A DNA stretch of 64,000 nucleotides, taken from positions 2,873,258 to 2,937,257 of the forward strand of contig JAOWCC010001634.1 in the NCBI GenBank assembly GCA_030867875.1, given 5' to 3'. The DNA is from Actinernus sp. WN-2022. Lineage: Eukaryota > Cnidaria > Anthozoa > Actiniaria > Actinernidae. The first letter of the stretch is position 1. Every line of letters starts with the position of its first letter. The notes beneath the pieces are model-generated. The model was not told where the DNA came from and did no database searches. It saw only the letters and a list, made by a program, of their open reading frames with translations. The translations under genes and the position numbers were made by a program. Positions 785-32,620 of the stretch are shown here, piece by piece.

Positions 785-3700
785 GTAAGCATGTATTCTC
801 TTCTTTAAAGATACATGTATGATACTTCAATAGCCATTCATACATTTCATACTGTTTGTTACAGGACACTTTTTTGTGACTTCTACAATCCCCAACAAAG
901 AATCTACTGCAAAAGATTGAGAGTTCTCTGTTCAGAGCACACCAAAGAGCCCAAGGTACAGCCATTAATGTTAATTTTATCGTTTTACTGAAATCTCCTT
1001 GTTAAATTAAGTATTCTTCAAAACCACAAGAACAACATGCCCATATGTCAGCGCAAAATTTGTGTGATGGCCTGTTGTCACATGTGGGGGGGCACAGGTA
1101 GCCCAAGCTTACGATCTGTATAATTTGTATTGGATTTTTTAGTTTTAATATACAATGTAAATCTTGAATAGAAATCAATAATCTTCGTGCTCCTTAGCTG
1201 TGTCTGTGCTAATTTTCAGCGAATTTGAGGCAAGTTTTACCTTTGTCCCCTCTCTATTTTATAAGGTAAAACTTGGCTCAAATTTGCAAAGGAACATAAG
1301 AGGACACACTGTAAGTGTTGTTGCTTTTTATTAAAGATTTACGTTGTAAATGGCAAATTAAAAAAATCCCATACAAATGCTATTAAATTATATAGATCGT
1401 AAGCTTGGGCTACCTGTGGCGGGGCTTCCAATAAATTTTGGAGTTAGGTAAGCAGCTGTGAGCAAAAGGAAGCATCAGACAGCAAGTAGATGGTGGTATA
1501 TGGATAAAGTAGCTGCCAGAAGTCCAGCTACTGAAACCCCTGCACACAAACTGTATGGGTGACATAATGCCAGCGTTATACGTCCAGACCCTTGCTCGTC
1601 CCTCTCTTACCACAGGAAGCCCGGTTTCACATCTTTTATATTATAATTAGGAGTTGACTGCGGAGGAGGCTAACTGTGCATTTTGTAGATATCACATGAT
1701 GTCATATGTTTTGCAGCAACATTCTTGAATAATATTCTTATTTAAAGTGCCTACAACTGTATAAGGTCAAATTTTATATCAATAATTTCTATATAATGTG
1801 AAAGGTGAATAGTAAAATATTTCTTGATTTGAATGCTGAATGTTGTTCTATATGATTTGACATCAAAGTGACAAAGGAGGCATCATTTCTTATCCAATAA
1901 CATGCTGGTAGAAATAAGTGACTCTTTTTTAAACAACATGGACGTTATATTTGAAGCATACAGTACTGTTCGAAAAGATTGCAACGAGAATTGGGGATAT
2001 ATCCCCGGGGATATTTCACTTTTAAGTGAAATATCACTTCACTAAGGGAAGTGAAATATCACTTTTGGTGACGTGAAATATCACTTTTGGAAAGTGAAAT
2101 ATCACTTTTGGTGACGTGAAATATCACTTTTGGAAAGTGATATTTCACTTTTGGTGACGTGAAATATCACTTTTGGAAAATGATATTTCACTTTTTGGAA
2201 AGGGATATTTCACTTTTGAAGAAGTGATATTTCACGTCACCAAAAAGTGATATTTCACTTTTTCGAACTGGACCTTTCACCGTCGTTATTATTCATGTGT
2301 TGTCAGTTTCTTCAACACCGTTCTTATTAACTTACGAAGCCAACTGTTTCAAAATAAACATTCTTAAATCACGGCACGCTACCAATCTTCGGTTAACTTT
2401 TATTCCTGTTCAAGGGTGATGAGTTGTCAGTTTCTTACTCAACACCGCCGCTCGGGTTCTTATTAACTAACGAAGCCAACTGTTTCAAAATAAACATTCT
2501 TAAATCACGGCACGCTACCAATCTTCGGTTAACTTTTATTCCTGTTCACACTTCATGTCTTGTCAGTTTCTTCAACACCGTCAGTTTCTACAACACGAAG
2601 CCAACTGCTTTAAAATAAACGTTCTTAAAACACGGCCCGCTAACAATCTTCGGTTAACTTTTATTCCTGTTCACACTTCATGTGTTGTCAGTTTCTTCAA
2701 CACCGTTCTTATTAACTAACGAAGCCAACTGCTTCAAAATAAACATTCTTAAAACACGGCCCGCTACCAATCTTCGGTTAACTTTTATTCCTGTTCACAC
2801 TTCATGTCTTGTCAGTTTCTTCAACACCGTTCTTATTAACTAACGAAGCCAACTGCTTCAAAATAAACATTCTTAAAACACGGCCCGCTACCAATCTTCG
2901 GTTAACTTTTATTCCTGTTCAAGCGTGATGAGTTGTCAGTTTCTTACACAACACCGCCGTTCCCGTTCTTATTAACTAACGAAGCCAACTGCTTCAAAAT
3001 AAACATTCTTAAAACACGGCCCGCTAACAATCTTCGGTTAACTTTTATTCCTGTTCACACTTCATGTCTTGTCAGTTTCTTCAACACCGTCAGTTTCTTC
3101 AACACGAAGCCAACTGCTTTAAAATAAACGTTCTTAAAACACGGCCCGCTACCAATCTTCGGTTAACTTTTATTCCTGTTCACACTTCATGTGTTGTCAG
3201 TTTCTTACACAACACCGCCGTTCCCGTTCTTATTAACTAACGAAGCCAACTGCTTCAAAATAAACATTCTTAAAACACGGCCCGCTAACAATCTTCGGTT
3301 AACTTTTATTCCTGTTCACACTTCATGTCTTGTCAGTTTCTTCAACACGAAGCCAACTGCTTTAAAATAAACGTTCTTAAAACACGGCCCGCTAACAATC
3401 TTCGGTTAACTTTTATTCCTGTTCACACTTCATGTCTTGTCAGTTTCTTCAACACCGTCAGTTTCTTCAACACGAAGCCAACTGCTTTAAAATAAACGTT
3501 CTTAAAACACGGCCCGCTAACAATCTTCGGTTAACTTTTATTCCTGTTCACACTTCATGTGTTGTCAGTTTCTTCAACACCGTTCTTATTAACTAACGAA
3601 GCCAACTGCTTCAAAATAAACATTCTTAAAACACGGCCCGCTACCAATCTTCGGTTAACTTTTATTCCTGTTCACACTTCATGTCTTGTCAGTTTCTTCA

Positions 3701-6700
3701 ACACCGTCAGTTTCTTCAACACGAAGCCAACTGCTTTAAAATAAACGTTCTTAAAACACGGCCCGCTAACAATCTTCGGTTAACTTTTATTCCTGTTCAC
3801 ACTTCATGTGTTGTCAGTTTCTTCAACACCGTTCTTATTAACTAACGAAGCCAACTGCTTCAAAATAAACATTCTTAAAACACGGCCCGCTACCAATCTT
3901 CGGTTAACTTTTATTCCTGTTCACACTTCATGTGTTGTCAGTTTCTTCAACACCGTTCTTATTAACTAACGAAGCCAACTGCTTCAAAATAAACATTCTT
4001 AAAACACGGCCCGCTACCAATCTTCGGTTAACTTTTATTCCTGTTCACACTTCATGTCTTGTCAGTTTCTTCAACACCATTCTTATTAACTAACGAAGCC
4101 AACTGTTTCAAAATAAACATTCTTAAATCACGGCCCGCTACCAATCTTCGGTTAACTTTTAGTCCTGTTCAAGGGTGATGAGTTGTCAGTTTCTTACTCA
4201 ACACCGCCGTTCCCGTTCTTATTAACTAACAAAGCCAACTGCTTCAAAATAAACATTCTTAAAACACGGCCCGCTACCAATCTTCGGTTAACTTTTATTC
4301 CTGTTCACACTTCATGTCTTGTCAGTTTCTTCAACACCGTTCTTATTAACTAACGAAGCCAACTGCTTCAAAATAAACATTCTTAAAACACGGCCCGCTA
4401 CCAATCTTCGCTTAACTTTTATTCCTGTTCAAGCGTGATGAGTTGTCAGTTTCTTCAACACCGTTCTTATTAACTAACGAAGCCAACTGCTTCAAAATAA
4501 ACATTCTTAAAACACGGCCCGCTACCAATCTTCGGTTAACTTTTATTCCTGTTCACACTTCATGTCTTGTCAGTTTCTTCAACACCATTCTTATTAACTA
4601 ACGAAGCCAACTGTTTCAAAATAAACATTCTTAAATCACGGCCCGCTACCAATCTTCGGTTAACTTTTAGTCCTGTTCAAGGGTGATGAGTTGTCAGTTT
4701 CTTACTCAACACCGCCGTTCCCGTTCTTATTAACTAACAAAGCCAACTGCTTCAAAATAAACATTCTTAAAACACGGCCCGCTACCAATCTTCGGTTAAC
4801 TTTTATTCCTGTTCACACTTCATGTCTTGTCAGTTTCTTCAACACCGTTCTTATTAACTAACGAAGCCAACTGCTTCAAAATAAACATTCTTAAAACACG
4901 GCCCGCTACCAATCTTCGGTTAACTTTTATTCCTGTTGACACTTCATGTCTTGTCAGTTTCTTCAACACCGTCAGTTTCTTCAACACGAAGCCAACTGCT
5001 TTAAAATAAACGTTCTTAAAACACGGCCCGCTAACAATCTTCGGTTAACCTTTATTCCTGTTCACACTTCATGTCTTGTCAGTTTCTTCAACACCGTTCT
5101 TATTAACTAACGAAGCCAACTGCTTCAAAATAAACATTCTTAAAACACGGCCCGCTACCAATCTTCGGTTAACTTTTATTCCTGTTCACACTTCATGTGT
5201 TGTCAGTTTCTTCAACACCGTTCTTATTAACTAACGAAGCCAACTGCTTCAAAATAAACATTCTTAAAACACGGCCCGCTACCAATCTTCGGTTAACTTT
5301 TATTCCTGTTCAAGCGTGATGAGTTGTCAGTTTCTTACACAACACCGCCGTTCCCGTTCTTATTAACTAACGAAGCCAACTGCTTTAAAATAAACGTTCT
5401 TAAAACACGGCCCGCTAACAATCTTCGGTTAACTTTTATTCCTGTTCACACTTCATGTGTTGTCAGTTTCTTCAACACCGTTCTTATTAACTAACGAAGC
5501 CAACTGCTTCAAAATAAACATTCTTAAAACACGGCCCGCTACCAATCTTCGGTTAACTTTTATTCCTGTTCACACTTCATGTCTTGTCAGTTTCTTCAAC
5601 ACCGTTCTTATTAACTAACGAAGCCAACTGTTTCAAAATAAACATTCTTAAAACACGGCCCGCTACCAATCTTCGGTTAACTTTTATTCCTGTTCACACT
5701 TCATGTCTTGTCAGTTTCTTCAACACCGTTCTTATTAACTAACGAAGCCAACTGCTTCAAAATAAACATTCTTAAAACACGGCCCGCTACCAATCTTCGG
5801 TTAACTTTTATTCCTGTTGACACTTCATGTCTTGTCAGTTTCTTCAACACCGTCAGTTTCTTCAACACGAAGCCAACTGCTTTAAAATAAACGTTCTTAA
5901 AACACGGCCCGCTAACAATCTTCGGTTAACCTTTATTCCTGTTCACACTTCATGTCTTGTCAGTTTCTTCAACACCGTTCTTATTAACTAACGAAGCCAA
6001 CTGCTTCAAAATAAACATTCTTAAAACACGGCCCGCTACCAATCTTCGGTTAACTTTTATTCCTGTTCACACTTCATGTGTTGTCAGTTTCTTCAACACC
6101 GTTCTTATTAACTAACGAAGCCAACTGCTTCAAAATAAACATTCTTAAAACACGGCCCGCTACCAATCTTCGGTTAACTTTTATTCCTGTTCAAGCGTGA
6201 TGAGTTGTCAGTTTCTTACACAACACCGCCGTTCCCGTTCTTATTAACTAACGAAGCCAACTGCTTTAAAATAAACGTTCTTAAAACACGGCCCGCTAAC
6301 AATCTTCGGTTAACTTTTATTCCTGTTCACACTTCATGTGTTGTCAGTTTCTTCAACACCGTTCTTATTAACTAACGAAGCCAACTGCTTCAAAATAAAC
6401 ATTCTTAAAACACGGCCCGCTACCAATCTTCGGTTAACTTTTATTCCTGTTCACACTTCATGTCTTGTCAGTTTCTTCAACACCGTTCTTATTAACTAAC
6501 GAAGCCAACTGTTTCAAAATAAACATTCTTAAAACACGGCCCGCTACCAATCTTCGGTTAACTTTTATTCCTGTTCACACTTCATGTCTTGTCAGTTTCT
6601 TCAACACCGTTCTTATTAACTAACAAAGCCAACTGCTTCAAAATAAACATTCTTAAAACACGGCCCGCTACCAATCTTCGGTTAACTTTTATTCCTGTTC

Positions 6701-9700
6701 ACACTTCATGTCTTGTCAGTTTCTTCAACACCGTTCTTATTAACTAACGAAGCCAACTGCTTCAAAATAAACATTCTTAAAACACGGCCCGCTACCAATC
6801 TTCGGTTAACTTTTATTCCTGTTGACACTCCATGTCTTGTCAGTTTCTTCAACACCGTCAGTTTCTTCAACACGAAGCCAACTGCTTTAAAATAAACGTT
6901 CTTAAAACACGGCCCGCTAACAATCTTCGGTTAACCTTTATTCCTGTTCACACTTCATGTCTTGTCAGTTTCTTCAACACCGTTCTTATTAACTAACGAA
7001 GCCAACTGCTTCAAAATAAACATTCTTAAAACACGGCCCGCTACCAATCTTCGGTTAACTTTTATTCCTGTTCACACTTCATGTGTTGTCAGTTTCTTCA
7101 ACACCGTTCTTATTAACTAACGAAGCCAACTGCTTCAAAATAAACCTTCTTAAAACACGGCCCGCTACCAATCTTCGGTTAACTTTTATTCCTGTTCAAG
7201 CGTGATGAGTTGTCAGTTTCTTACACAACACCGCCGTTCCCGTTCTTATTAACTAACGAAGCCAACTGCTTTAAAATAAACGTTCTTAAAACACGGCCCG
7301 CTAACAATCTTCGGTTAACTTTTATTCCTGTTCACACTTCATGTGTTGTCAGTTTCTTCAACACCGTTCTTATTAACTAACGAAGCCAACTGCTTCAAAA
7401 TAAACATTCTTAAAACACGGCCCGCTACCAATCTTCGGTTAACTTTTATTCCTGTTCACACTTCATGTCTTGTCAGTTTCTTCAACACCGTTCTTATTAA
7501 CTAACGAAGCCAACTGTTTCAAAATAAACATTCTTAAAACACGGCCCGCTACCAATCTTCGGTTAACTTTTATTCCTGTTCACACTTCATGTCTTGTCAG
7601 TTTCTTCAACACCGTTCTTATTAACTAACGAAGCCAACTGCTTCAAAATAAACATTCTTAAAACACGGCCCGCTACCAATCTTCGGTTAACTTTTATTCC
7701 TGTTGACACTTCATGTCTTGTCAGTTTCTTCAACACCGTCAGTTTCTTCAACACGAAGCCAACTGCTTTAAAATAAACGTTCTTAAAACACGGCCCGCTA
7801 ACAATCTTCGGTTAACCTTTATTCCTGTTCACACTTCATGTGTTGTCAGTTTCTTCAACACCGTTCTTATTAACTAACGAAGCCAACTGCTTCAAAATAA
7901 ACATTCTTAAAACACGGCCCGCTACCAATCTTCGGTTAACTTTTATTCCTGTTCACACTTCATGTGTTGTCAGTTTCTTCAACACCGTTCTTATTAACTA
8001 ACGAAGCCAACTGCTTCAAAATAAACATTCTTAAAACACGGCCCGCTACCAATCTTCGGTTAACTTTTATTCCTGTTCACACTTCATGTCTTGTCAGTTT
8101 CTTCAACACCATTCTTATTAACTAACGAAGCCAACTGTTTCAAAATAAACATTCTTAAATCACGGCCCGCTACCAATCTTCGGTTAACTTTTAGTCCTGT
8201 TCAAGGGTGATGAGTTGTCAGTTTCTTACTCAACACCGCCGTTCCCGTTCTTATTAACTAACAAAGCCAACTGCTTCAAAATAAACATTCTTAAAACACG
8301 GCCCGCTACCAATCTTCGGTTAACTTTTATTCCTGTTCACACTTCATGTCTTGTCAGTTTCTTCAACACCGTTCTTATTAACTAACGAAGCCAACTGCTT
8401 CAAAATAAACATTCTTAAAACACGGCCCGCTACCAATCTTCGCTTAACTTTTATTCCTGTTCAAGCGTGATGAGTTGTCAGTTTCTTCAACACCGTTCTT
8501 ATTAACTAACGAAGCCAACTGCTTCAAAATAAACATTCTTAAAACACGGCCCGCTACCAATCTTCGGTTAACTTTTATTCCTGTTCACACTTCATGTCTT
8601 GTCAGTTTCTTCAACACCATTCTTATTAACTAACGAAGCCAACTGTTTCAAAATAAACATTCTTAAATCACGGCCCGCTACCAATCTTCGGTTAACTTTT
8701 AGTCCTGTTCAAGGGTGATGAGTTGTCAGTTTCTTACTCAACACCGCCGTTCCCGTTCTTATTAACTAACAAAGCCAACTGCTTCAAAATAAACATTCTT
8801 AAAACACGGCCCGCTACCAATCTTCGGTTAACTTTTATTCCTGTTCACACTTCATGTCTTGTCAGTTTCTTCAACACCGTTCTTATTAACTAACGAAGCC
8901 AACTGCTTCAAAATAAACATTCTTAAAACACGGCCCGCTACCAATCTTCGGTTAACTTTTATTCCTGTTGACACTTCATGTCTTGTCAGTTTCTTCAACA
9001 CCGTCAGTTTCTTCAACACGAAGCCAACTGCTTTAAAATAAACGTTCTTAAAACACGGCCCGCTAACAATCTTCGGTTAACCTTTATTCCTGTTCACACT
9101 TCATGTCTTGTCAGTTTCTTCAACACCGTTCTTATTAACTAACGAAGCCAACTGCTTCAAAATAAACATTCTTAAAACACGGCCCGCTACCAATCTTCGG
9201 TTAACTTTTATTCCTGTTCACACTTCATGTGTTGTCAGTTTCTTCAACACCGTTCTTATTAACTAACGAAGCCAACTGCTTCAAAATAAACATTCTTAAA
9301 ACACGGCCCGCTACCAATCTTCGGTTAACTTTTATTCCTGTTCAAGCGTGATGAGTTGTCAGTTTCTTACACAACACCGCCGTTCCCGTTCTTATTAACT
9401 AACGAAGCCAACTGCTTTAAAATAAACGTTCTTAAAACACGGCCCGCTAACAATCTTCGGTTAACTTTTATTCCTGTTCACACTTCATGTGTTGTCAGTT
9501 TCTTCAACACCGTTCTTATTAACTAACGAAGCCAACTGCTTCAAAATAAACATTCTTAAAACACGGCCCGCTACCAATCTTCGGTTAACTTTTATTCCTG
9601 TTCACACTTCATGTCTTGTCAGTTTCTTCAACACCGTTCTTATTAACTAACGAAGCCAACTGTTTCAAAATAAACATTCTTAAAACACGGCCCGCTACCA

Positions 9701-12700
9701 ATCTTCGGTTAACTTTTATTCCTGTTCACACTTCATGTCTTGTCAGTTTCTTCAACACCGTTCTTATTAACTAACGAAGCCAACTGCTTCAAAATAAACA
9801 TTCTTAAAACACGGCCCGCTACCAATCTTCGGTTAACTTTTATTCCTGTTGACACTTCATGTCTTGTCAGTTTCTTCAACACCGTCAGTTTCTTCAACAC
9901 GAAGCCAACTGCTTTAAAATAAACGTTCTTAAAACACGGCCCGCTAACAATCTTCGGTTAACCTTTATTCCTGTTCACACTTCATGTCTTGTCAGTTTCT
10001 TCAACACCGTTCTTATTAACTAACGAAGCCAACTGCTTCAAAATAAACATTCTTAAAACACGGCCCGCTACCAATCTTCGGTTAACTTTTATTCCTGTTC
10101 ACACTTCATGTGTTGTCAGTTTCTTCAACACCGTTCTTATTAACTAACGAAGCCAACTGCTTCAAAATAAACATTCTTAAAACACGGCCCGCTACCAATC
10201 TTCGGTTAACTTTTATTCCTGTTCAAGCGTGATGAGTTGTCAGTTTCTTACACAACACCGCCGTTCCCGTTCTTATTAACTAACGAAGCCAACTGCTTTA
10301 AAATAAACGTTCTTAAAACACGGCCCGCTAACAATCTTCGGTTAACTTTTATTCCTGTTCACACTTCATGTGTTGTCAGTTTCTTCAACACCGTTCTTAT
10401 TAACTAACGAAGCCAACTGCTTCAAAATAAACATTCTTAAAACACGGCCCGCTACCAATCTTCGGTTAACTTTTATTCCTGTTCACACTTCATGTCTTGT
10501 CAGTTTCTTCAACACCGTTCTTATTAACTAACGAAGCCAACTGTTTCAAAATAAACATTCTTAAAACACGGCCCGCTACCAATCTTCGGTTAACTTTTAT
10601 TCCTGTTCACACTTCATGTCTTGTCAGTTTCTTCAACACCGTTCTTATTAACTAACAAAGCCAACTGCTTCAAAATAAACATTCTTAAAACACGGCCCGC
10701 TACCAATCTTCGGTTAACTTTTATTCCTGTTCACACTTCATGTCTTGTCAGTTTCTTCAACACCGTTCTTATTAACTAACGAAGCCAACTGCTTCAAAAT
10801 AAACATTCTTAAAACACGGCCCGCTACCAATCTTCGGTTAACTTTTATTCCTGTTGACACTCCATGTCTTGTCAGTTTCTTCAACACCGTCAGTTTCTTC
10901 AACACGAAGCCAACTGCTTTAAAATAAACGTTCTTAAAACACGGCCCGCTAACAATCTTCGGTTAACCTTTATTCCTGTTCACACTTCATGTCTTGTCAG
11001 TTTCTTCAACACCGTTCTTATTAACTAACGAAGCCAACTGCTTCAAAATAAACATTCTTAAAACACGGCCCGCTACCAATCTTCGGTTAACTTTTATTCC
11101 TGTTCACACTTCATGTGTTGTCAGTTTCTTCAACACCGTTCTTATTAACTAACGAAGCCAACTGCTTCAAAATAAACCTTCTTAAAACACGGCCCGCTAC
11201 CAATCTTCGGTTAACTTTTATTCCTGTTCAAGCGTGATGAGTTGTCAGTTTCTTACACAACACCGCCGTTCCCGTTCTTATTAACTAACGAAGCCAACTG
11301 CTTTAAAATAAACGTTCTTAAAACACGGCCCGCTAACAATCTTCGGTTAACTTTTATTCCTGTTCACACTTCATGTGTTGTCAGTTTCTTCAACACCGTT
11401 CTTATTAACTAACGAAGCCAACTGCTTCAAAATAAACATTCTTAAAACACGGCCCGCTACCAATCTTCGGTTAACTTTTATTCCTGTTCACACTTCATGT
11501 CTTGTCAGTTTCTTCAACACCGTTCTTATTAACTAACGAAGCCAACTGTTTCAAAATAAACATTCTTAAAACACGGCCCGCTACCAATCTTCGGTTAACT
11601 TTTATTCCTGTTCACACTTCATGTCTTGTCAGTTTCTTCAACACCGTTCTTATTAACTAACGAAGCCAACTGCTTCAAAATAAACATTCTTAAAACACGG
11701 CCCGCTACCAATCTTCGGTTAACTTTTATTCCTGTTGACACTTCATGTCTTGTCAGTTTCTTCAACACCGTCAGTTTCTTCAACACGAAGCCAACTGCTT
11801 TAAAATAAACGTTCTTAAAACACGGCCCGCTAACAATCTTCGGTTAACCTTTATTCCTGTTCACACTTCATGTCTTGTCAGTTTCTTCAACACCGTTCTT
11901 ATTAACTAACGAAGCCAACTGCTTCAAAATAAACATTCTTAAAACACGGCCCGCTACCAATCTTCGGTTAACTTTTATTCCTGTTCACACTTCATGTGTT
12001 GTCAGTTTCTTCAACACCGTTCTTATTAACTAACGAAGCCAACTGCTTCAAAATAAACATTCTTAAAACACGGCCCGCTACCAATCTTCGGTTAACTTTT
12101 ATTCCTGTTCAAGCGTGATGAGTTGTCAGTTTCTTACACAACACCGCCGTTCCCGTTCTTATTAACTAACGAAGCCAACTGCTTTAAAATAAACGTTCTT
12201 AAAACACGGCCCGCTAACAATCTTCGGTTAACTTTTATTCCTGTTCACACTTCATGTGTTGTCAGTTTCTTCAACACCGTTCTTATTAACTAACGAAGCC
12301 AACTGCTTCAAAATAAACATTCTTAAAACACGGCCCGCTACCAATCTTCGGTTAACTTTTATTCCTGTTCACACTTCATGTCTTGTCAGTTTCTTCAACA
12401 CCGTTCTTATTAACTAACGAAGCCAACTGTTTCAAAATAAACATTCTTAAAACACGGCCCGCTACCAATCTTCGGTTAACTTTTATTCCTGTTCACACTT
12501 CATGTCTTGTCAGTTTCTTCAACACCGTTCTTATTAACTAACGAAGCCAACTGTTTCAAAATAAACATTCTTAAAACACGGCCCGCTACCAATCTTCGGT
12601 TAACTTTTATTCCTGTTCACACTTCATGTCTTGTCAGTTTCTTCAACACCGTTCTTATTAACTAACAAAGCCAACTGCTTCAAAATAAACATTCTTAAAA

Positions 12701-15700
12701 CACGGCCCGCTACCAATCTTCGGTTAACTTTTATTCCTGTTCACACTTCATGTCTTGTCAGTTTCTTCAACACCGTTCTTATTAACTAACGAAGCCAACT
12801 GCTTCAAAATAAACATTCTTAAAACACGGCCCGCTACCAATCTTCGGTTAACTTTTATTCCTGTTGACACTTCATGTCTTGTCAGTTTCTTCAACACCGT
12901 CAGTTTCTTCAACACGAAGCCAACTGCTTTAAAATAAACGTTCTTAAAACACGGCCCGCTAACAATCTTCGGTTAACCTTTATTCCTGTTCACACTTCAT
13001 GTCTTGTCAGTTTCTTCAACACCGTTCTTATTAACTAACGAAGCCAACTGCTTCAAAATAAACATTCTTAAAACACGGCCCGCTACCAATCTTCGGTTAA
13101 CTTTTATTCCTGTTCACACTTCATGTGTTGTCAGTTTCTTCAACACCGTTCTTATTAACTAACGAAGCCAACTGCTTCAAAATAAACATTCTTAAAACAC
13201 GGCCCGCTACCAATCTTCGGTTAACTTTTATTCCTGTTCAAGCGTGATGAGTTGTCAGTTTCTTACACAACACCGCCGTTCCCGTTCTTATTAACTAACG
13301 AAGCCAACTGCTTTAAAATAAACGTTCTTAAAACACGGCCCGCTAACAATCTTCGGTTAACTTTTATTCCTGTTCACACTTCATGTGTTGTCAGTTTCTT
13401 CAACACCGTTCTTATTAACTAACGAAGCCAACTGCTTCAAAATAAACATTCTTAAAACACGGCCCGCTACCAATCTTCGGTTAACTTTTATTCCTGTTCA
13501 CACTTCATGTCTTGTCAGTTTCTTCAACACCGTTCTTATTAACTAACGAAGCCAACTGTTTCAAAATAAACATTCTTAAAACACGGCCCGCTACCAATCT
13601 TCGGTTAACTTTTATTCCTGTTCACACTTCATGTCTTGTCAGTTTCTTCAACACCGTTCTTATTAACTAACGAAGCCAACTGCTTCAAAATAAACATTCT
13701 TAAAACACGGCCCGCTACCAATCTTCGGTTAACTTTTATTCCTGTTCACACTTCATGTCTTGTCAGTTTCTTCAACACCGTCAGTTTCTTCAACACGAAG
13801 CCAACTGCTTTAAAATAAACGTTCTTAAAACACGGCCCGCTAACAATCTTCGGTTAACCTTTATTCCTGTTCACACTTCATGTCTTGTCAGTTTCTTCAA
13901 CACCGTTCTTATTAACTAACGAAGCCAACTGCTTCAAAATAAACATTCTTAAAACACGGCCCGCTACCAATCTTCGGTTAACTTTTATTCCTGTTCACAC
14001 TTCATGTGTTGTCAGTTTCTTCAACACCGTTCTTATTAACTAACGAAGCCAACTGCTTCAAAATAAACATTCTTAAAACACGGCCCGCTACCAATCTTCG
14101 GTTAACTTTTATTCCTGTTCAAGCGTGATGAGTTGTCAGTTTCTTACACAACACCGCCGTTCCCGTTCTTATTAACTAACGAAGCCAACTGCTTTAAAAT
14201 AAACGTTCTTAAAACACGGCCCGCTAACAATCTTCGGTTAACTTTTATTCCTGTTCACACTTCATGTGTTGTCAGTTTCTTCAACACCGTTCTTATTAAC
14301 TAACGAAGCCAACTGCTTCAAAATAAACATTCTTAAAACACGGCCCGCTACCAATCTTCGGTTAACTTTTATTCCTGTTCACACTTCATGTCTTGTCAGT
14401 TTCTTCAACACCGTTCTTATTAACTAACGAAGCCAACTGTTTCAAAATAAACATTCTTAAAACACGGCCCGCTACCAATCTTCGGTTAACTTTTATTCCT
14501 GTTCACACTTCATGTCTTGTCAGTTTCTTCAACACCGTTCTTATTAACTAACGAAGCCAACTGCTTCAAAATAAACATTCTTAAAACACGGCCCGCTACC
14601 AATCTTCGGTTAACTTTTATTCCTGTTGACACTTCATGTCTTGTCAGTTTCTTCAACACCGTCAGTTTCTTCAACACGAAGCCAACTGCTTTAAAATAAA
14701 CGTTCTTAAAACACGGCCCGCTAACAATCTTCGGTTAACCTTTATTCCTGTTCACACTTCATGTCTTGTCAGTTTCTTCAACACCGTTCTTATTAACTAA
14801 CGAAGCCAACTGCTTCAAAATAAACATTCTTAAAACACGGCCCGCTACCAATCTTCGGTTAACTTTTATTCCTGTTCACACTTCATGTGTTGTCAGTTTC
14901 TTCAACACCGTTCTTATTAACTAACGAAGCCAACTGCTTCAAAATAAACATTCTTAAAACACGGCCCGCTACCAATCTTCGGTTAACTTTTATTCCTGTT
15001 CAAGCGTGATGAGTTGTCAGTTTCTTACACAACACCGCCGTTCCCGTTCTTATTAACTAACGAAGCCAACTGCTTTAAAATAAACGTTCTTAAAACACGG
15101 CCCGCTAACAATCTTCGGTTAACTTTTATTCCTGTTCACACTTCATGTGTTGTCAGTTTCTTCAACACCGTTCTTATTAACTAACGAAGCCAACTGCTTC
15201 AAAATAAACATTCTTAAAACACGGCCCGCTACCAATCTTCGGTTAACTTTTATTCCTGTTCACACTTCATGTCTTGTCAGTTTCTTCAACACCGTTCTTA
15301 TTAACTAACGAAGCCAACTGTTTCAAAATAAACATTCTTAAATCACGGCCGGGCGCTACCAATCTTCGGTTAACTTTTAGTCCTGTTCAAGGGTGATGAG
15401 TTGTCAGTTTCTTACACAACACCGCCGTTCCCGTTCTTATTAACTAACGAAGCCAACTGCTTCAAAATAAACATTCTTAAAACACGGCCCGCTACCAATC
15501 TTCGGTTAACTTTTATTCCTGTTCACACTTCATGTCTTGTCAGTTTCTTCAACACCGTCAGTTTCTTCAACACGAAGCCAACTGCTTTAAAATAAACATT
15601 CTTAAAACACGGCCCGCTACCAATCTTCGGTTAACTTTTATTCCTGTTCACACTTCATGTCTTGTCAGTTTCTTCAACACCGTTCTTATTAACTAACGAA

Positions 15701-18700
15701 GCCAACTGTTTCAAAATAAACATTCTTAAATCATTCTTAAATAGTTAATAAGAACCCGAACGGCGGTGTTGAGTAAGAAACTGACAACTCATCACCCTTG
15801 AACAGGACTAAAAGTTAACCGAAGATTGGTAGCGGGCTGTGATTTAAGAATGTTTATTTTGAAACAGTTGGCTTCGTTAGTTAATAAGAACGGTGTTGAA
15901 GAAACTGACAAGACATGAAGTGTGAACAGGAATAAAAGTTAACCGAAGATTGGTAGCGGGCCGTGTTTTAAGAATGTTTATTTTGAAGCAGTTGGCTTCG
16001 TTAGTTAATGAACGGTGTTGAAGAAACTGACAACTCATGACACGCTTGAACAGGAATAAAAGTTAACCGAAGATTGTTAGCGGGCCGTGTTTTAAGAATG
16101 TTTATTTTGAAGCAGTTGGCTTCGTTAGTTAATAAGAACGCGAACGGCGGTGTTGAGTAAGAAACTGACAACTCATGACACGCTTGAACAGGAATAAAAG
16201 TTAACCGAAGATTGTTTGCGGGCTGTCTTTTAAGAACGTTTATTTTGAAGCAGTTGGCTTCGTTAGTTAATAAGAACGCGAACGGCGCTGTTGAGTAAGA
16301 AACTGACAACTCATCATGCTTGAACAGGAATAATAACGACGGTGAAAGGTCCAGTTCGAAAAAGTGAAATATCACTTTTTGGTGACGTGAAATATCACTT
16401 TTGGTGACGTGAAATATCACTTTGGTGACGTGAAATATCACTTTTGGTGACGTGAAATATCACTTTTGGTGACGTGAAATATCACTTTTGGTGATGTGAA
16501 ATATCACTTTTGGTCAAGTGAAGTGAAATATCACTTAGGTGAAATATCACTTTTGTAGAAAGTGAAATATCACCTTAAACTTCACATAAAAGTGAAATTT
16601 CACTTTTCAGGTGAAATATCACTTTTTAAGTGATATTTCACTTCACCTCGTTGCAATATTTTCGAACAGTACTGTATATCAGTGATTCTACCAAATATAC
16701 TGGGTCTGATACACATGATAGTAGTTGATAGGACTGTGGCTTGGTTATACTAACTCAATTAGACTGGCTCGCTCTTGGTTTCTATCGACTTTGATAGTTG
16801 ACCCGGGGTTGAGCCCCTCATCAACTATCAGCCGTCACCGGCTTGAATTTGTTATAAATATAAACCTCTATAACTCATGGATTCGAGAAATATTCTACTA
16901 TTCACTTGTCTCTAGCTTCTTCCTAATGCAGTGTGCGGCTGTCCCTTGGTAACCACGTACAACATATTTGAGGAGACAGACATGATATGCCATGCACCCA
17001 AGCGAACATGCATGAAGCACTACAGATGGGAGAAGTTACGCCGAGCAGAGATTGACCTTCAGAGAGTACAACAGGTTTGTAGAGGGTACATAGTGTAGGG
17101 CAGTAATTGGTCACTACCAAATTGAAAAAGGACTGGGGCAGAGTGCGTAAAGATAGTCTAATTAAGAAATGAATGCCATCACAAGAAAGAGCACAGCAAA
17201 ATTAGTAAGTTTTATTGGATATTTACCATGTGGTGAGTTTTTAAAAGTCGCAAAAATAAGAGACGTCTGAGAGCTGAACAGCCACCTCATCACGGGCTAG
17301 CCAATCCATAGCCACGTCTTATTTTTCGATTTTTGAAAGCTTGCTTTTCAGTTTCTATTTACAAAATCATGTTCAAACTTGGTACAAATTCTTGGTTACA
17401 ATACCAGAAACAAGCTAAAACAAACTGGGACAAACAAAAACTTACATACCAGGCATCAAAGGACTTTAGATTTAGATGTTCGGCCTGTAAGATCTTTATC
17501 GCTATAGCGATACTTCGTGTTGATAAACATTACAATTGTTATGCTAATGTCCAACCATGATTTCAAAAGGCCGCTTTGTGTCAGGAACCAATGGATCTCT
17601 GGTTGGCACATTGATAACAATGGATGACGTGTAGTAAGTATCGCTATTCAAGGCGGTGTTTGTAGTAAATTTTATCCCAATGTTCAAAACTTAAACTGTA
17701 CTGTTCAAAACATGTTTTTCTTAGCTTCTGAAGGAAATGGTCCGAGTATTTGCAGCTTATCCTTGCCACAAAACTATTATTCTTCGCACAAAACATGAAA
17801 ACATGAAGGTGGTCACAACATTTAAAATTTTCGCCATTTTTGTCGTCATTAGTCCCCGCGCGTCACGTTATTCAGCTCTTTGCAAACTCGGTCCCAGTCT
17901 TTTTCTCAATTTGGTAGTGGGTCATGTGTTGATTCAATAACCAATGAATTGAGCTCGCGATCCCATGAGAAGGGCAAACAAACTTCAAACCACTGTTTTT
18001 GAAAGATCGACAATGGAGTGGAGGTGGAAAATAGCATCTTCAAACAGGTTTTGCTGATAACACTACCGATCTCGTACAAGTGCCTTGAAATAAACGAAGT
18101 CAGTTTTTTTGCCATCCAGTAAAACCACGTGATCACATTCATGAAAAGGCCCATTTAGGCGTTAATTCCATCAGGTTTATTACAATGCAAACTTTTAACA
18201 AACGGTCACAGTATAGATGTATGTCGCACTGAATGAATTCCTCAGTACAACTTACAAGGGTCCGTTTCAAATGCTGTTCCTGCCATGTCGAACTGAATTA
18301 AACTGGACTTAACTTTGTTTCAGATGTCGAATTTAATCCATCAGGCTTTTAAATATTTAATCCAACTTTATATGATTTATGTTTAAGTCATGAATTGAGT
18401 TCGACACAGCAGTGTTTGCCATGCCACATGACCGAGTCGAATTTAATTTAAGTTGCATTAACTGGAGCTCTTCGTAGAATTAGACGATTCGTCCCACCGA
18501 AGATATTTTCAATCATTATTATTATTTTTTAAATGTATGACATATATTCAGAATGGTTTTTTTAAAACTACGTTTATCTCTCTCCAATTTAAGTGGCTCT
18601 GGTACAAAACTGGAACAATCTCGCTTTAATTCTAACTGGTCAAAGAACTCTTACGCTTACATCCAGCCACCTATGGAATAATCTACGGACTGTAGTATGC

Positions 18701-21700
18701 GCAGCTCCTAACGCGAAGACATTTAAAAGAATGCTTAACAAAGTGGAGCTTAACCCACATTTATACAATACCGAAATATCTAACTTTTGAACTGTGATTT
18801 AGCAGCACATGTATAGTAATATCCTAAAATACACCCGTTTGTAGAGACACTGTTGTTGGATACGTGTAGGGTGTATATACATAGCCATTGCTCTTGTATA
18901 TACTGTATGTGCGTCTTGGAGCGGTGTTCTCGAATGTAATTAGCATATAGATTTAACCTAGTGTGGTAATTTTATATTAGATTTATTTTAACGATAAACG
19001 AATGTATATTATATTTTTAACTAACTGTAGGGCATTTTTATAGTATGATTGATTGATTGTTAGTTTCAAACGTCATGCCACAGCCGTGGTAAAGTCATGA
19101 ATTTAGTTTGACACAGCATTTGAAACTGGCCTAACATCTGGGGGGTGGGGGGGTACTCCTGTTTGTGACGTATTATGTATGTGTCGCGGGGGTGGGTCGG
19201 GGTTTTGAGTTCAGTTTGGGCAGGTAGGGTCAGGGTCGGTTTTGACTTGATTTGGGCAGATCAGGGTCAGGAATTGAGTTTAATGTGGGTGCAGTCAGGG
19301 TCGGGGTTCAGTATTTTTTAGGCATCAGGGTTTTTTCCCCCAAAAATGGGGCAATCAGGGTTTTGGAGCTCGGAATTTGGGTCAAACAGGGTCAGGGTTT
19401 GAGCCTCTTGGCCTCACATACATACCCAAACCCCCCCCCCCCCCCCCCTAACATTACCATTACATGGAATGAATTGGGAAACAAAATTAAGTGTGATGAA
19501 GTTGTTAGCGTAATAAAACGCCATGATATATTTGGAATCGTAGAAACGCATGCTAGTCAAGAATCTGATCTTAGCATTGAATCATTTAAGCACTTTTCAA
19601 AAATTCGCAGTAAAACTGGAAATAGACACTCTGGGGGAATAACTCTATACATTAACAACAGAATCAAAGAGGATGTTTCTTACGTACAATCTAAAAATAA
19701 TAACATACTATGGTGTAAACTGAATAAGAGCTACTTCCATATAGCGAGGGATATTTTCATCGGAACTGTATATTTCAGTCCAGATAACTATGAAAAAGCG
19801 AACAGTGATGATTACATATCAGATCTTGACGGGGATCTAACCAAATTTTCAACCAAGGGTGACATAATCCTACAAGGAGATTTTAATGCGCGAACAAGGA
19901 GAGTTAAATGAATACATTTTACTGGATGATAGTAAATATCTAGATTTACCAGATGATTATGATTGTGACATTCCACACAAGAGATACTCTCAAGACAAAA
20001 ATAACACTGACAAGAGGGGCAAGTTACTCATAGAAGTATGCACTGAAAACAACCTAAGAATACTTAATGGCAGAACAATAGGTGATTCCACTGGCAAGAA
20101 AACCTGTTTTCAATACAATGGTAGTAGTTTAGTCGATGACGTAATTAGCAGTTCTCGCATGCTTACAGTTAACGCTCTCCAACCAATTATATCTGATCAT
20201 TGTCGACTTGCTAAGAAGATCAAACCAGATGGGATCTATATCAATGAGGACTTTGCTGAAGAAACAGTAAAGAAAAGAAAAGAACTCCTACCTAAACTAA
20301 AGGAAGCGAGGGACCAAGGGAAAATCGCCTATCTAGTAGTGGACAGGCTCGTTATTAAGAATAAGTCATACAGGCCTCCTCCTATGAGTCCTGGCCTACA
20401 TTCAGCTCACTCTTCACCTAACGATGGCTAAGCAGAAATTTCCTTGTGGAATCTGTACGAAATCTGTGAATCAAAATCACAAAGCTGTTCAATGTGATAT
20501 TTGCAACTATTGGATTCATATTAAATGTAATAATCTCTCATCTAAAGACTATCGACACCTACAACTAAGTAATGAGGTATGGTTTTGTAAAAAATGTATA
20601 TCTGATATATTTCCATTTTCTACATTAGAGGATACCGAATTGTATAATCTTAATAACTGTAAACTACCATCTCATTTTGACTTATTGCCTTCTCTTGATA
20701 TACTATCCAAAATTTCTGGATTACCATTTCTTGATAATTCTGATATAGACAACAATATTCCAAATCCAATTAATTCTCGATATTATTACCCTAAGGATTT
20801 TGATAATTTAGTCTTATCTCCTGAACAACCACATTTTTCTTTATTTCACATTAACTTGAATAGCCTTGATGCCCATTTTGATAACCTTCAAGCCACTCTT
20901 TCGATGTTGGCTTTTCCATTTCAAATAATTGGAATTACAGAGACTAGAGAACGTATTACCTTAGGATTTAAAATGAACAATAATTTGGAAGGTTATGATT
21001 TGCTTACCCAGCCTTCTAATTCAGCAGCAGGGGGTGTAGCCATTTATGCTAGTAAATCACTGGATGTCAGTAAAAGATCTGACCTTAGTATAACCGACAA
21101 TGATTTTGAGACCATTTGGGTTGAAATTAATAACAAAAAAGCCAAGAATACTTTATGTTGTTGTGCTTACAGACACCCTTCGTCCAATCCGATAAAATTC
21201 AGAGAACACCTTGAGTCAATTTTTCACAAAATATCTAGAGAAAATAAGAACATATTTATTATGGGGGACTTTAACATGAATCTGTTAAATTATGAGAGCC
21301 ATGTAGAAACCAGTGAATTCTTTAACACAATGACTTCTAATTTCCTTCTACCTTATATCCTCCAACCTACTCGAATTACTGACAGAACTGCTACCCTAAT
21401 AGATAATATATATGCTAATACATTTAATTATAATGCTATCAGTGGTAATATTATTACTAAAATTGCTGATCACCTTCCACAGTTTCTAATTGTAGAAGAT
21501 TTCAAAATTAATTATAAAAGTTTATATTACTATAAAACTGATTATTCAAACTTCGATGCAAATGCCTTTAGCAACAATTTTTGCCTTCTTGATTGGTCAT
21601 TCCTGAGCAATAATAACTTGGATACTGATTCAAAGTTCGATACATTCTACAACAAAATCTCTTCTTATGTTGACCTTCATGCTCCTCGCAGAAAGTTATC

Positions 21701-24700
21701 AAAGCAAGAAATCAAATTAAAATCTAAACCCTGGATAACTACAGAAATATTGAGAATGATTAAATATAGGGACAAATTATATTCTAAGTTATTAAAAAAA
21801 ACGAATGACCTTAACCTCACATACTTATTTAAGAAATGTAGAAATCGAGTTGTTAATGACATTAAAGAGAGCAAAAGGAAGTATTTTAGACAATACTTTC
21901 TTTCTAATATGACAAATATGAAAAAACTCTGGTCAGGTATCCGATCAATTATTAATATTAGTAAATGCAAAATTAGCTCTGTTCCTACATTATTGGAAAA
22001 TAATAAATCCATTGACAATCCATATGTCATTGCAAATATTTTCAATAAGTTTTTCGTCAACGTTGGTAAATCAACTGATAAAAATATCCCCAAAGGAAAT
22101 CATAGTGCCTCATTTTACCTTAAAGGTAATTATCCACAGTCATTTTTTTTATCACCTGTAGTTCCACTAGAAGTTTCACTAATTATTTCTAAAATGGATA
22201 ATAGTAAATCTGTCGGGCCAAATAGTATTCCAATTCCCTTATTAAAAATTCTTAATGATCATATTTCTAAACCATTAACACTATTAATCAATGATTCTTT
22301 TACCTCTGGAATCTTTCCAAGTAAACTAAAAATAGCTAAAGTTACTCCTATTTTCAAAAAAGGATCAAGACTGGAAAAGGACAATTATAGGCCTATATCA
22401 GTTCTATCTATCTTTAGTAAATTTTTTGAGAAATTAATGCATCAACGTCTTTATAAATATCTTGAACAATACAGTATTCTCTATTCCCTTCAGTTTGGGT
22501 TCAGAGAGAAGTGTTCAACATCTCATGCCCTTATTAGTATAACTGAATTGATACGAAATTCAATTGATAGCAATGAATATGGATGTGGAATATTTATTGA
22601 TTTGAAAAAAGCTTTTGACACTGTTAATCATTCAATTTTATTATCTAAAATGAATCATTATGGTATAAGAGGCATTATTAATGACTGGTTTTTGTCTTAT
22701 CTTTCTAATAGAGAACAATATGTAACTATTAATGGCCATAATTCTGTTCCTTTACCAATTAATTGTGGAGTGCCCCAAGGTTCCGTGTTAGGCCCATTGT
22801 TATTTTTGTTATACATTAATGACCTACCAAATGCTTCAAGTTTGCTTAAATTTCATTTATTTGCTGATGATACTAATATCTATTATTCTTCTAAAAATCT
22901 TGAACACCTCCAACAATTAATAAATAATGAATTAAGGGCAGTTGCTGACTGGATGAAAACTAATAGATTAGCTCTTAGTCTACAAAAAACTAATTTTATA
23001 TTATTCCATTCTAATCAACATAAGCCTACTCAGTCTTTTAATATCAGAATTGATAATATAATTATTAAACAAGTTTCTTCTGTAAAATATTTAGGAATTT
23101 CATTTGATTCTAATCTTAACTGGAAATGTCACATTAATGAACTATGCTTAAAGTTATCAAAAACTATTGGCATTTTGTCTAAGGTTAGACATTTTGTCAA
23201 TACTGATATCCTTGTTATGCTTTATTATGCTCTAGTTTATCCATTTATAACTTATGGTGTTCAAGCCTGGGGTCTTACATACCATAGTTACCTAAAGCCT
23301 ATTTCTATAATCCAGAAAAAAGCTGTAAGAATTATAACTTTTTCAGAACCTAGATCCCACTCTGAACCTCTCTTTAAATCACTCAACATGCTTAAGTTTA
23401 ACGATGTTATTAATCTTCAAATTCTTACATTTCTTTTTCAGTGGTCTCATAATCTAACACCTAGTAGCTTTAGTGACTATTTTAAGTATGTATCCAATGT
23501 TCACTCCTATCCCACCCGTCAATCTCTAAGTAATGATATATATTTAAAAGCTGTTAAAACTACTCACTATGGACTACGTTCTCTTCAATATACTGGCTCA
23601 AAACTTTGGAATTCTTTACCTTCTGATACAAGAAACATAACCTCTCTCGTCTCCTTTCGTAAAAATATTAAACGCTCTGTTTTAGATAATTATTCCTTTG
23701 ACTAGTCTTGATTTTATAATATTTATTAGATTATAATACTATTACTGAAGAAATACAAACTTACTTTAATGTATTCTCCCTTTAAATATAAGTATTGAGG
23801 GTCATCCTCTCGATTAGTTTATGCTTTTAGGATGACCCGAACTCAATAAAATAATTATATTAGTTAATATTATATGTTCAAATATTCACATCGTAATGTC
23901 AATTCATAAGTATATTTCCAAATTGTAAATTTATTATTGAGTCAAATAAAACATGATGATGATGATGATTGTCAAATATCATACGGTCTTAAGATAAACA
24001 AACCGAAACAGTTGCTTTCACAACAAAGCAAGAACCAAACGCACCCCCGTCTGATATTCAACGAGAGCGCAAAAGACAAAATACCTTTAATCCTTAACTC
24101 GGAAGAGTATAAATCCAAACTCGAAAGCATTATCGATGAATTCGACATTAACGAACCGAAATCAGCAAGTTCTATCACAAGTAAATTCACGAAAGTCCTG
24201 ATCGAAATTAGCGAAAAAGCGGGAATTAAATATCAAGATGTGATAAATAGACCGGGAAATCCAAAGCCATGTTGGTTTGATGAGGAATGTAGTCCAGAAA
24301 AGGAGAATCTAAAATCACTTGGGCACCGAATTTGTAATAATCCAGATGTTGATGATCTAAGGAGGAACTTATTTATAAAAAAGAAGCGTTTCAAAAAATT
24401 ATGTAAAAAAAGAAAGCCCACGCAACCAATACGAGTCTAAAAGAACTGGATTTCAAAAGCCCAAAGAAACTGTGGGGGAAATTAAAAACTATTTTCAACA
24501 TAGGTAAAAAAAAAGAAAAACAGTGTTGCCCTGTGGAAATAGAAGAATTCCACAGTCACTTTAATAAACAAAATGCTGCGGACGTAAACCCTATTCCTAA
24601 TTGCTACACAAGGCAAGGGCCATTAGATTATGATATAACAATTAAGGAGATTAGCGACGCCATAAAAAGACTAAAGAACAACAAATCACCCGGTCATGAT

Positions 24701-29893: not shown

Positions 29894-29945
29894 CAAGTAC
29901 AATAACTCGAACGTCAAATTGCATTAAGGCAGAAAATCAAACTGA

Positions 29946-30285
29946 GTTTCGCTTTGAGCACTTTTGCTTTATCGAGTTCCGCTTTGACCACTTTCGCTTT
30001 ATCAAGTTTCACTTTCAGCACTTTCGCTTTATCGTGTTTCACTTTGAGCACTTTCAGTTTATCTTGTTTCTCTCCAGTACTGAAGCACTTTCGCTTTATC
30101 GTTTCACTTTCAGCACTTTCAGTTTATCTTGTTTCGCTCCAGTAAGCACTTTCGCTTTATCGTGTTTCACTTTGAGCACTTTCAGTTTTCTTGTTTCGCT
30201 CCAGTAAGCACTTTCGCTTTATCGTGTTTCGCTCCAGTAAGCACTTTCGCTTTATCGTGTTTCGCTTTGAGCACTTTCTACATTA
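29946..30285 (+). repeat. GCACTTTCGCTTTATCGTGTTTC tandem repeat, left arm
   Basis: About ten units of roughly 31 bp (GAGCACTTTCGCTTTATCG, then TGTTTCACTTT). Some units have a CTCCAGTA insert. Open frames of 112-142 aa through it are repeat artefacts. Confidence 0.88.
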
Positions 30286-31369: not shown

Positions 31370-31970
31370 TATCATTCTGGCGTTCTCGCATCTCGGATTC
31401 TCGCATGTCGGATTCTGGCATTCTCGTATCTCGCACTGGCTCGCATCTCGGATTCTCGTATCTCGCATTCTTGCATGTCGGATTCTGGTATCTCGCATAT
31501 CGGATTCTCGTATCTCGCATGTCGGATTCTCTTATCTCGGTTTCTCCGGCGCATCTCACATGTCGCATTCTCGTATCTCGGATTCTCGTATCATTCTCTG
31601 ATTCTCGTATCTCACATGTCGGATTCTCGTATCTCTGATTCTCACATTCTCGCATGTCGGATTCTCGCATGTCGGATCTCGTATCTCGGATTCTCGTATC
31701 TCGGATTCTCGTATCTCACATGTCGGCTTCTCGTATCTCGAATTCTCACATTCTCGTATGTCGGATTCTCGTACATGTATGTCGGATTCTCGTATCTCGG
31801 ATTCTCGTATCTCGGATTCTCGTATCTCACATGTCGGTTTCTCACATTCTCGCATGTCGGATTCTCGTCTCTCGGATTCTCACATTCTCGCATGTCGGAT
31901 TCTCGTATCTCGGATTCTCGTATCTCACATGTCAGATTCTCGTATCTCGCGCGCATCTCGGATTCTCATG
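31370..31970 (+). repeat. CTCGGATTCTCGTAT minisatellite, expanded right arm
   Basis: Units of about 15-23 bp (GGATTCTCGTATCTC with optional ACATGTC or GCATGTC). The 253-aa and other frames here are repeat artefacts, open in several frames and on both strands. Confidence 0.92.
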
Positions 31971-32414: not shown

Positions 32415-32620
32415 TGTGGCTACCGTGAAAGTGCTCAAAGTAAAAGTGGCCAAAAATATAAAGCCAAAGTGCTCATACAGCGAAACTCGATAAAGCGAAG
32501 TTTGATAAGGAAAAGTGCTCATAGCGAAACTTGTTAAAGCGAAAGTGCTCCTAGCGAAGCTTGATAAAGCGAAACTGCTCAGCGTAACTCCATAAAGCGA
32601 AAGTGCTCAAAGTTTGATTT
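32415..32620 (-). repeat. right tandem-repeat arm of the second foldback element
   Basis: CGATAAAGCGAAAGTGCTC-type units, the reverse complement of the array at 29946-30285, in about six more diverged copies. Confidence 0.8.

Follow-up and report, generated by a model that had tools for sequence, protein, structure and literature searches.

A fold-back form is known from Tc4 and other palindromic Tc elements of Caenorhabditis, Tc4 being part of the wider Tc group, and from TU of sea urchins. To our knowledge, none of these has satellite arms of the kind described here for an element of 14.7 kb (14,714 bp, positions 1961–16674) in a 64-kb stretch of DNA from Actinernus sp. WN-2022 (Cnidaria, Actiniaria; contig JAOWCC010001634.1, positions 2,873,258 to 2,937,257). 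Throughout, this whole stretch is called the window. The initial annotation had read the feature as a foldback transposon of a non-autonomous family with a Tc1/mariner-like TA target, and this reading is now supported by other copies in the genome, by paralogous sites with a single TA and by two transposase-bearing relatives. We consider it very probable that this is a foldback element of the IS630-Tc1-mariner superfamily that lacks autonomy and whose past or present cut-and-paste movement at TA sites would rely on a DD34E transposase of Tc1 type such as longer family members encode.

The nearest precedents are Tetris in design, Galileo in arm behaviour and Xenopus miDNA4 in superfamily. Like the element described here, Tetris of Drosophila virilis is a foldback with tandem repeats within its terminal inverted arms, its alleles differ in repeat number and the repeats are amplified inside the element (PMC4079207). 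However, Tetris makes target duplications of 8–10 bp, its authors assign it to Mutator and they report no transposase copy (PMC4079207), whereas the duplication here is TA and tips and arms are shared with relatives that carry a Tc1-type transposase. In Tetris, the repeats are also found as arrays lacking the element's flanking domain (PMC4079207); the small sample of places listed here contained no such arrays. Galileo, of the P superfamily, shares long, internally repetitive arms that change length independently on each side, as well as the existence of both coding copies and copies made of two terminal inverted repeats; its arm repeats are said to contain secondary transposase binding sites (PMC3573991). 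Its transposase is of a different superfamily, and P-type domains are absent from the Pfam results for the coding copies found here, which show DDE_3 and helix-turn-helix domains. Finally, miDNA4 is likewise a non-autonomous Tc1/mariner element with an internal satellite of variable copy number (PMC9659126, PMC12628747). There the satellite lies within a miniature inverted-repeat transposable element (MITE), whereas here two opposed satellite arms are combined with hairpin arrays, and the family includes a 14.7-kb copy with higher-order units and coding relatives. A search of titles and abstract openings in the open-licence literature found no precedent for a Tc1-type foldback that combines satellite arms, same-armed coding relatives, empty sites and near-identical sisters differing by blocks.

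The window element and the host exon pieces on either side of it are arranged as follows.

866–955, plus strand: upstream host exon piece, CpG_bind_C (CXXC1 type; Pfam PF12269, E 4.1e-14)
1959–1960: TA, left copy of the target-site duplication (sequence, empty-site tests and table of flanks)
1961–1988, plus strand: left tip, 28 bp, G type (CAGTACTGTTCGAAAAGATTGCAACGAG; pattern search)
1989–2262, plus strand: left subterminal hairpin array, units of about 22 bp with GTGAAATATCAC (motif search, and fold z of 1961–2290)
2259–2295, plus strand: left spacer between hairpin array and satellite, common to both arms and to other copies
2316–15733, plus strand: left satellite arm made of 124-bp monomers (107 monomer hits) with an 881-bp higher-order unit
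3786–7841, plus strand: 4056-bp stretch with a mismatch-free second copy at 7818–11873 (4032 bp downstream)
15734–15774: centre, 41 bp, separating the two satellite arms
15775–16333, minus strand: right satellite arm, 5 reversed monomer hits
16328–16363, minus strand: right spacer
16364–16646, minus strand: right subterminal hairpin array
16647–16674, minus strand: right tip, 28 bp, T type (GAAAATATT; pattern search)
16675–16676: TA, right copy of the target-site duplication (sequence, empty-site tests and table of flanks)
16934–17074, plus strand: downstream host exon piece, CpG_bind_C (CXXC1 type; Pfam PF12269, E 2.3e-18)

The limits first described proved right to the base, and each part of the anatomy reported with them was recovered. 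The tips are inverted repeats identical at 27 of 28 positions, the single difference being G/T, and TA lies outside both. Allowing one substitution, the hairpin motifs GTGAAATATCAC and GTGATATTTCAC are confined within the 64-kb window to 2008–2258 and 16364–16641, beside the two tips. When folded as single-stranded DNA the left 330 bp (1961–2290) reach −94.8 kcal/mol, against a mean of −28.7 in shuffles (z −16.5), and none of 100 shuffles folded equally well. One and the same spacer follows each hairpin array, located at 2259 on the plus strand and 16363 on the minus strand, and the satellite monomers face inward from both sides with the strong asymmetry claimed (107 forward and 5 reversed hits; about 108 and about 5 in the initial annotation), leaving a nearly absent centre. 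The element therefore has the long, inverted, repeat-built arms and the lack of a substantial centre that characterise foldbacks. An idea that the hairpin array ends in an inner inverted tip copy, as in a composite MITE, was dropped, the 9-bp match being equalled in 73 of 300 shuffles.

Since both flanking exon pieces match CpG_bind_C, a domain of CXXC1-type proteins, the element is intronic, in agreement with the location first proposed, and in a CXXC1-type gene it takes up most of one intron. Searched by sequence against solved structures, the downstream piece gave no match.

The empty-site check suggested at the outset was made by joining the window flanks at a single TA. The resulting 27-base pattern (up to three mismatches) occurs at 619 places in the genome and its reversed control at none; no place listed is exact and six listed differ by one base. 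Three of these six were fetched, and all three align to the joined flanks through the junction with 74–82% identity over 73–93 positions, about 50–75 bp to the left of the junction and 18–22 bp to the right. These places are diverged paralogous empty sites and agree with a 2-bp TA duplication. Of the 27 delimited copies, 23 also have TA outside both ends, so that insertion at TA with TA duplication, as in IS630-Tc1-mariner elements, is seen both at empty sites and at filled ones and the target is of the Tc1/mariner kind, as first supposed. As an observation apart, the host DNA at the insertion resembles a dispersed repeat, given the 619 similar places. One family copy (L024, C635:59145700–59149700) lies between two identical 803-bp direct repeats without TA, a picture suggestive of tandem duplication, of an insertion of unusual kind or of a fault in the assembly.

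Searches of the 1.39-Gb assembly, in which the window lies on a 149-Mb sequence, show that the element belongs to a dispersed family sharing tips and spacer, as had been anticipated. The tip pattern (up to two mismatches) has 446 genomic matches (227 + 219) against none for the reversed pattern, perhaps corresponding to some two hundred copies. With the left 440 bp as query at least 39 other loci were found (1010 candidates, 39 of them scored; the window is absent from the matches listed). Twenty of them were fetched: 17 are delimited by both tips and three run off the stretch (L011, L016, L027). Tip and spacer follow in the same order at both ends, with satellite between, in these 17 copies, and one G-type tip is paired with one T-type tip in 18 of 18 cases (the window and the 17). 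The set of 27 measured copies is completed by a coding copy on C1312 and eight small copies: L032, L050 and L056 from the tip census, and L059–L063. Two G-type tips occur in the C1312 copy and in these eight, and further such pairs are present in the tip census. Sizes range from 103 to 14,714 bp, the window copy being twice the length of the next longest. Small, hairpin-only copies measure 103–457 bp, and L050, L059, L060 and L061 have hairpins and no monomers. Outside this set, an element on C53 reaches 11.2 kb between tips, with a centre that is not satellite.

Some loci differ in other ways. L016 and L027 (C1312:162.09 Mb and C53) are long members with another common centre of about 4.4 kb, 95.6% identical. 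The two tips L033 and L034 (C235:11439541–11447275) lie 7.7 kb apart with no outer TA, and the loci have open frames of 180 and 120 aa. L052 (C540:53488236) has one family tip and, by eye, a diverged tip-like sequence about 500 bp away, without hairpins or monomers, and perhaps represents a related Tc1-like family.

Two copies that have family tips, hairpins and satellite also have a coding centre: L013 (C1614) and C1312:66384233–66391010. The transposase frame of L013 matches Pfam DDE_3 (E 1.8e-14), its sole match among solved structures is Sleeping Beauty (E 2e-19), and a D-D-34-E catalytic spacing is read from the alignment. Compared with 336-aa relatives it has about 21 N-terminal residues without counterpart and is short of about 59 C-terminal residues, satellite monomers starting at that point; its right tip carries one additional mismatch. 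The C1312 copy has both tips and both hairpin arrays, a spacer found on the left only, left satellite pieces giving four forward hits, and reversed satellite with a 229-bp period. Its transposase covers DDE_3 in full (E 6.5e-18, profile positions 2–145 of 146) and is broken by internal stops, with further breaks read by eye. Part of this copy is 98.9% identical to a 954-bp module common to L012, L013 and L014, and the C53 element holds a 176-bp transposase piece at 99.4% identity. Because a Tc1-type transposase is encoded by two copies that share the tips and arms, the family is assigned to the Tc1/mariner superfamily on sequence grounds; the DD34E-type enzyme lies within family tips in these two relatives and not in the window copy itself.

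Across the genome the transposase has 133 matches (147 of 370 candidates scored), only three of them at 97% identity or more: C1614 (truncated), C1312 (broken) and C53 (a fragment). The initial annotation had called for an autonomous mariner with the same tips; Tc1-type coding relatives were found, but one is broken and the other truncated. Transposases on C814 (77%) and at C685:12.1M (62%) were considered as well, and since no matching tips lie within the 3.0 and 2.8 kb examined around them, they are not counted as the autonomous element of this family.

On its opposite strand the C1312 centre encodes a BEN domain (PF10523, E 7.3e-06; 26.5 bits, cut-off 23.2), and DNA matching this region is present in L013 at 94% identity. 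The region lies at L064 356–598 (minus strand), with neighbouring minus-strand frames to about 2073, and its L013 counterpart at 3268–4825. It may be a captured host gene or a second gene of the element; the literature search described above found no case of a BEN gene in a transposon.

Near-identical sister copies give a view of how the family changes. Eight pairs were aligned and four are used here, the others (L012/L013, L020/L024, L022/L026, L021/L015) being too diverged or rearranged to read. L010 and L018 match at 2546 of 2546 aligned bases; their sole differences are two gaps of 22 bp, with one gap per hairpin array. They lie on different chromosome-scale sequences, and their flanks (up to 900 bp each side) have no similarity at E 1e-20. 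As far as alignments can tell, such near-identical, satellite-bearing copies at unrelated sites show movement of the element. L020 and L022 have three mismatches in 2203 bases and length differences of 22 bp and 770 bp, the 770-bp block being an exact tandem copy of its downstream neighbour. L022 differs from L024 by eight mismatches plus 136 and 22 bp, and L021 from L025 by 19 mismatches, blocks of 633 and 122 bp and some small ones; exact removal failed to reproduce the 122-bp block. In all four pairs the repeat number was altered by the gain or loss of blocks while few bases changed.

The left arm of the window copy can be divided into 92 units, among which 23 different sequences occur. Its basic block of 881 bp is repeated exactly inside the window, and nested duplications occur at offsets of 881, 1886, 2010 and 4032. 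Elsewhere, near-full-length matches to the 881-bp block reach at most 97% among those listed (39 of 289 candidates scored; window not listed), and the best among fetched copies is 95.9% over 827 bp. Both this and the exact 4056-bp duplication support local expansion. The right 620 bp are 99.5% identical to L018, whereas the first 1.5 kb of the array is nearest to L020 and L022 (96–97%), and these mixed affinities suggest that exchange between family copies may have taken place. The initial annotation had the satellite expanding within one arm. That is true of the window copy, but among the 27 copies the longer arm may lie on either side: on the left in L009, L020, L022, L024, L026 and the window copy, on the right in L019, L021 and L025. 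Arm lengths correlate weakly (Spearman 0.37, p 0.06), with the reservation that the C1312 row begins with the other subterminal type, so that the two sides may be interchanged in that row. One-sided arm growth is common and not bound to one side. No other array as long as that of the window is found among the 881-bp-block matches listed.

A 28-base monomer anchor (up to two mismatches) has 2921 genomic matches, 1840 forward and 1081 reverse, and its control none. The 100 exact anchors listed, which are the first part in contig order and hence a non-random sample, form 11 clusters, each with a listed tip within 8 kb; no transposon-free satellite array was seen among these 100 of 2921. The idea that a transposon acts as the seed of a satellite array thus stands in part: array growth is seen inside the element, and although the sample holds no tip-free array, few anchors are listed, so that seeding is shown within the element only and not outside it. 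As to the skew between 1840 and 1081, the window accounts for part of the excess, and other long one-sided arrays may exist.

Other explanations bear on different parts of these data. An ordinary satellite locus hit by two solo MITEs in opposite orientation might be imagined, hairpin-only copies of 103–457 bp being known in the genome, but the tip-and-spacer order at both ends with satellite between recurs in 17 other delimited copies and the joined outer flanks match single-TA paralogous sites, and we regard this as hardly credible. It is also unlikely, if less so, that a Tc1-like miniature element captured a pre-existing satellite and that copies differ mainly in the amount captured. Capture of an existing tandem repeat has been proposed for Xenopus miDNA4 (PMC12628747), and small members with hairpins and no monomers would fit it. 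However, all 100 listed anchors fall in the 11 tip-containing clusters, and near-identical sisters differ by tandem blocks, one of them exact; the length changes therefore took place once the monomer was already inside the element. That the length of the window copy is mostly an assembly artefact, through false duplication of 4-kb blocks, seems to us improbable. The 4056 bp repeated without mismatch and a length twice that of the next longest copy would be expected from such a fault, whereas the several nested duplications, the block differences between other copies and the 11.2-kb C53 element, though its centre is non-satellite, argue for a real array.

The reading as a non-autonomous Tc1/mariner foldback has points standing against it as well. 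The empty sites are paralogues and not alleles, none of those listed matching all 27 bases. TA is wanting on at least one side in four of 27 copies (L024, L050, L060 and the C1312 coding copy, whose left TA is missing). No intact transposase of the family was found among the scored genome matches, and the exact 4056-bp duplication is possibly an assembly artefact, the length being that of the assembled sequence.

If the Tc1/mariner foldback reading is right, the transposase of the coding copies would move the other copies, with the hairpin units perhaps acting as extra transposase-binding sites. Block changes could stem from slippage, from unequal exchange or from the repair of gaps, either while the element transposes or later, and the 12.8-kb array of the window copy may have grown through successive duplications confined to the left arm, shortly before insertion or after it. 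A more speculative proposal, which we hold to be rather doubtful, is that a two-gene Tc1-type transposon, with a transposase and an opposite-strand BEN-domain DNA-binding protein, evolved the satellite arms as mobility apparatus, that these arms duplicate quickly by blocks, and that window-like copies are satellite loci in the making, spread into introns by cut-and-paste.

The origin of satellites is an old question, and here one genome has copies ranging from 103 bp without monomers to 14.7 kb. The family may show a satellite array in the process of arising within a transposon. With 0–19 mismatches between some sisters, single array-changing events are readable and can be counted against point mutations, so that it could become possible to measure how fast, and by what mechanism, a satellite grows within a mobile element. 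The family also brings a Tc1/mariner example, coding relatives included, into a class of foldbacks described as mostly Mutator (PMC4079207).

The window holds other features. An 85-bp tandem repeat (4.8 copies) occupies positions 1–405, upstream of the exon, and an open frame of 1093 aa at 20424–23705 (plus strand) resembles, by eye, a reverse transcriptase of the LINE type that begins in a PHD-like manner. Related units of 15/30 bp (TTTCGCTTTATC) form two arrays, at 29944–30278 and 32475–32609, which lie in opposite orientation around a third array at 31383–31943 and are possibly part of another inverted-repeat element.

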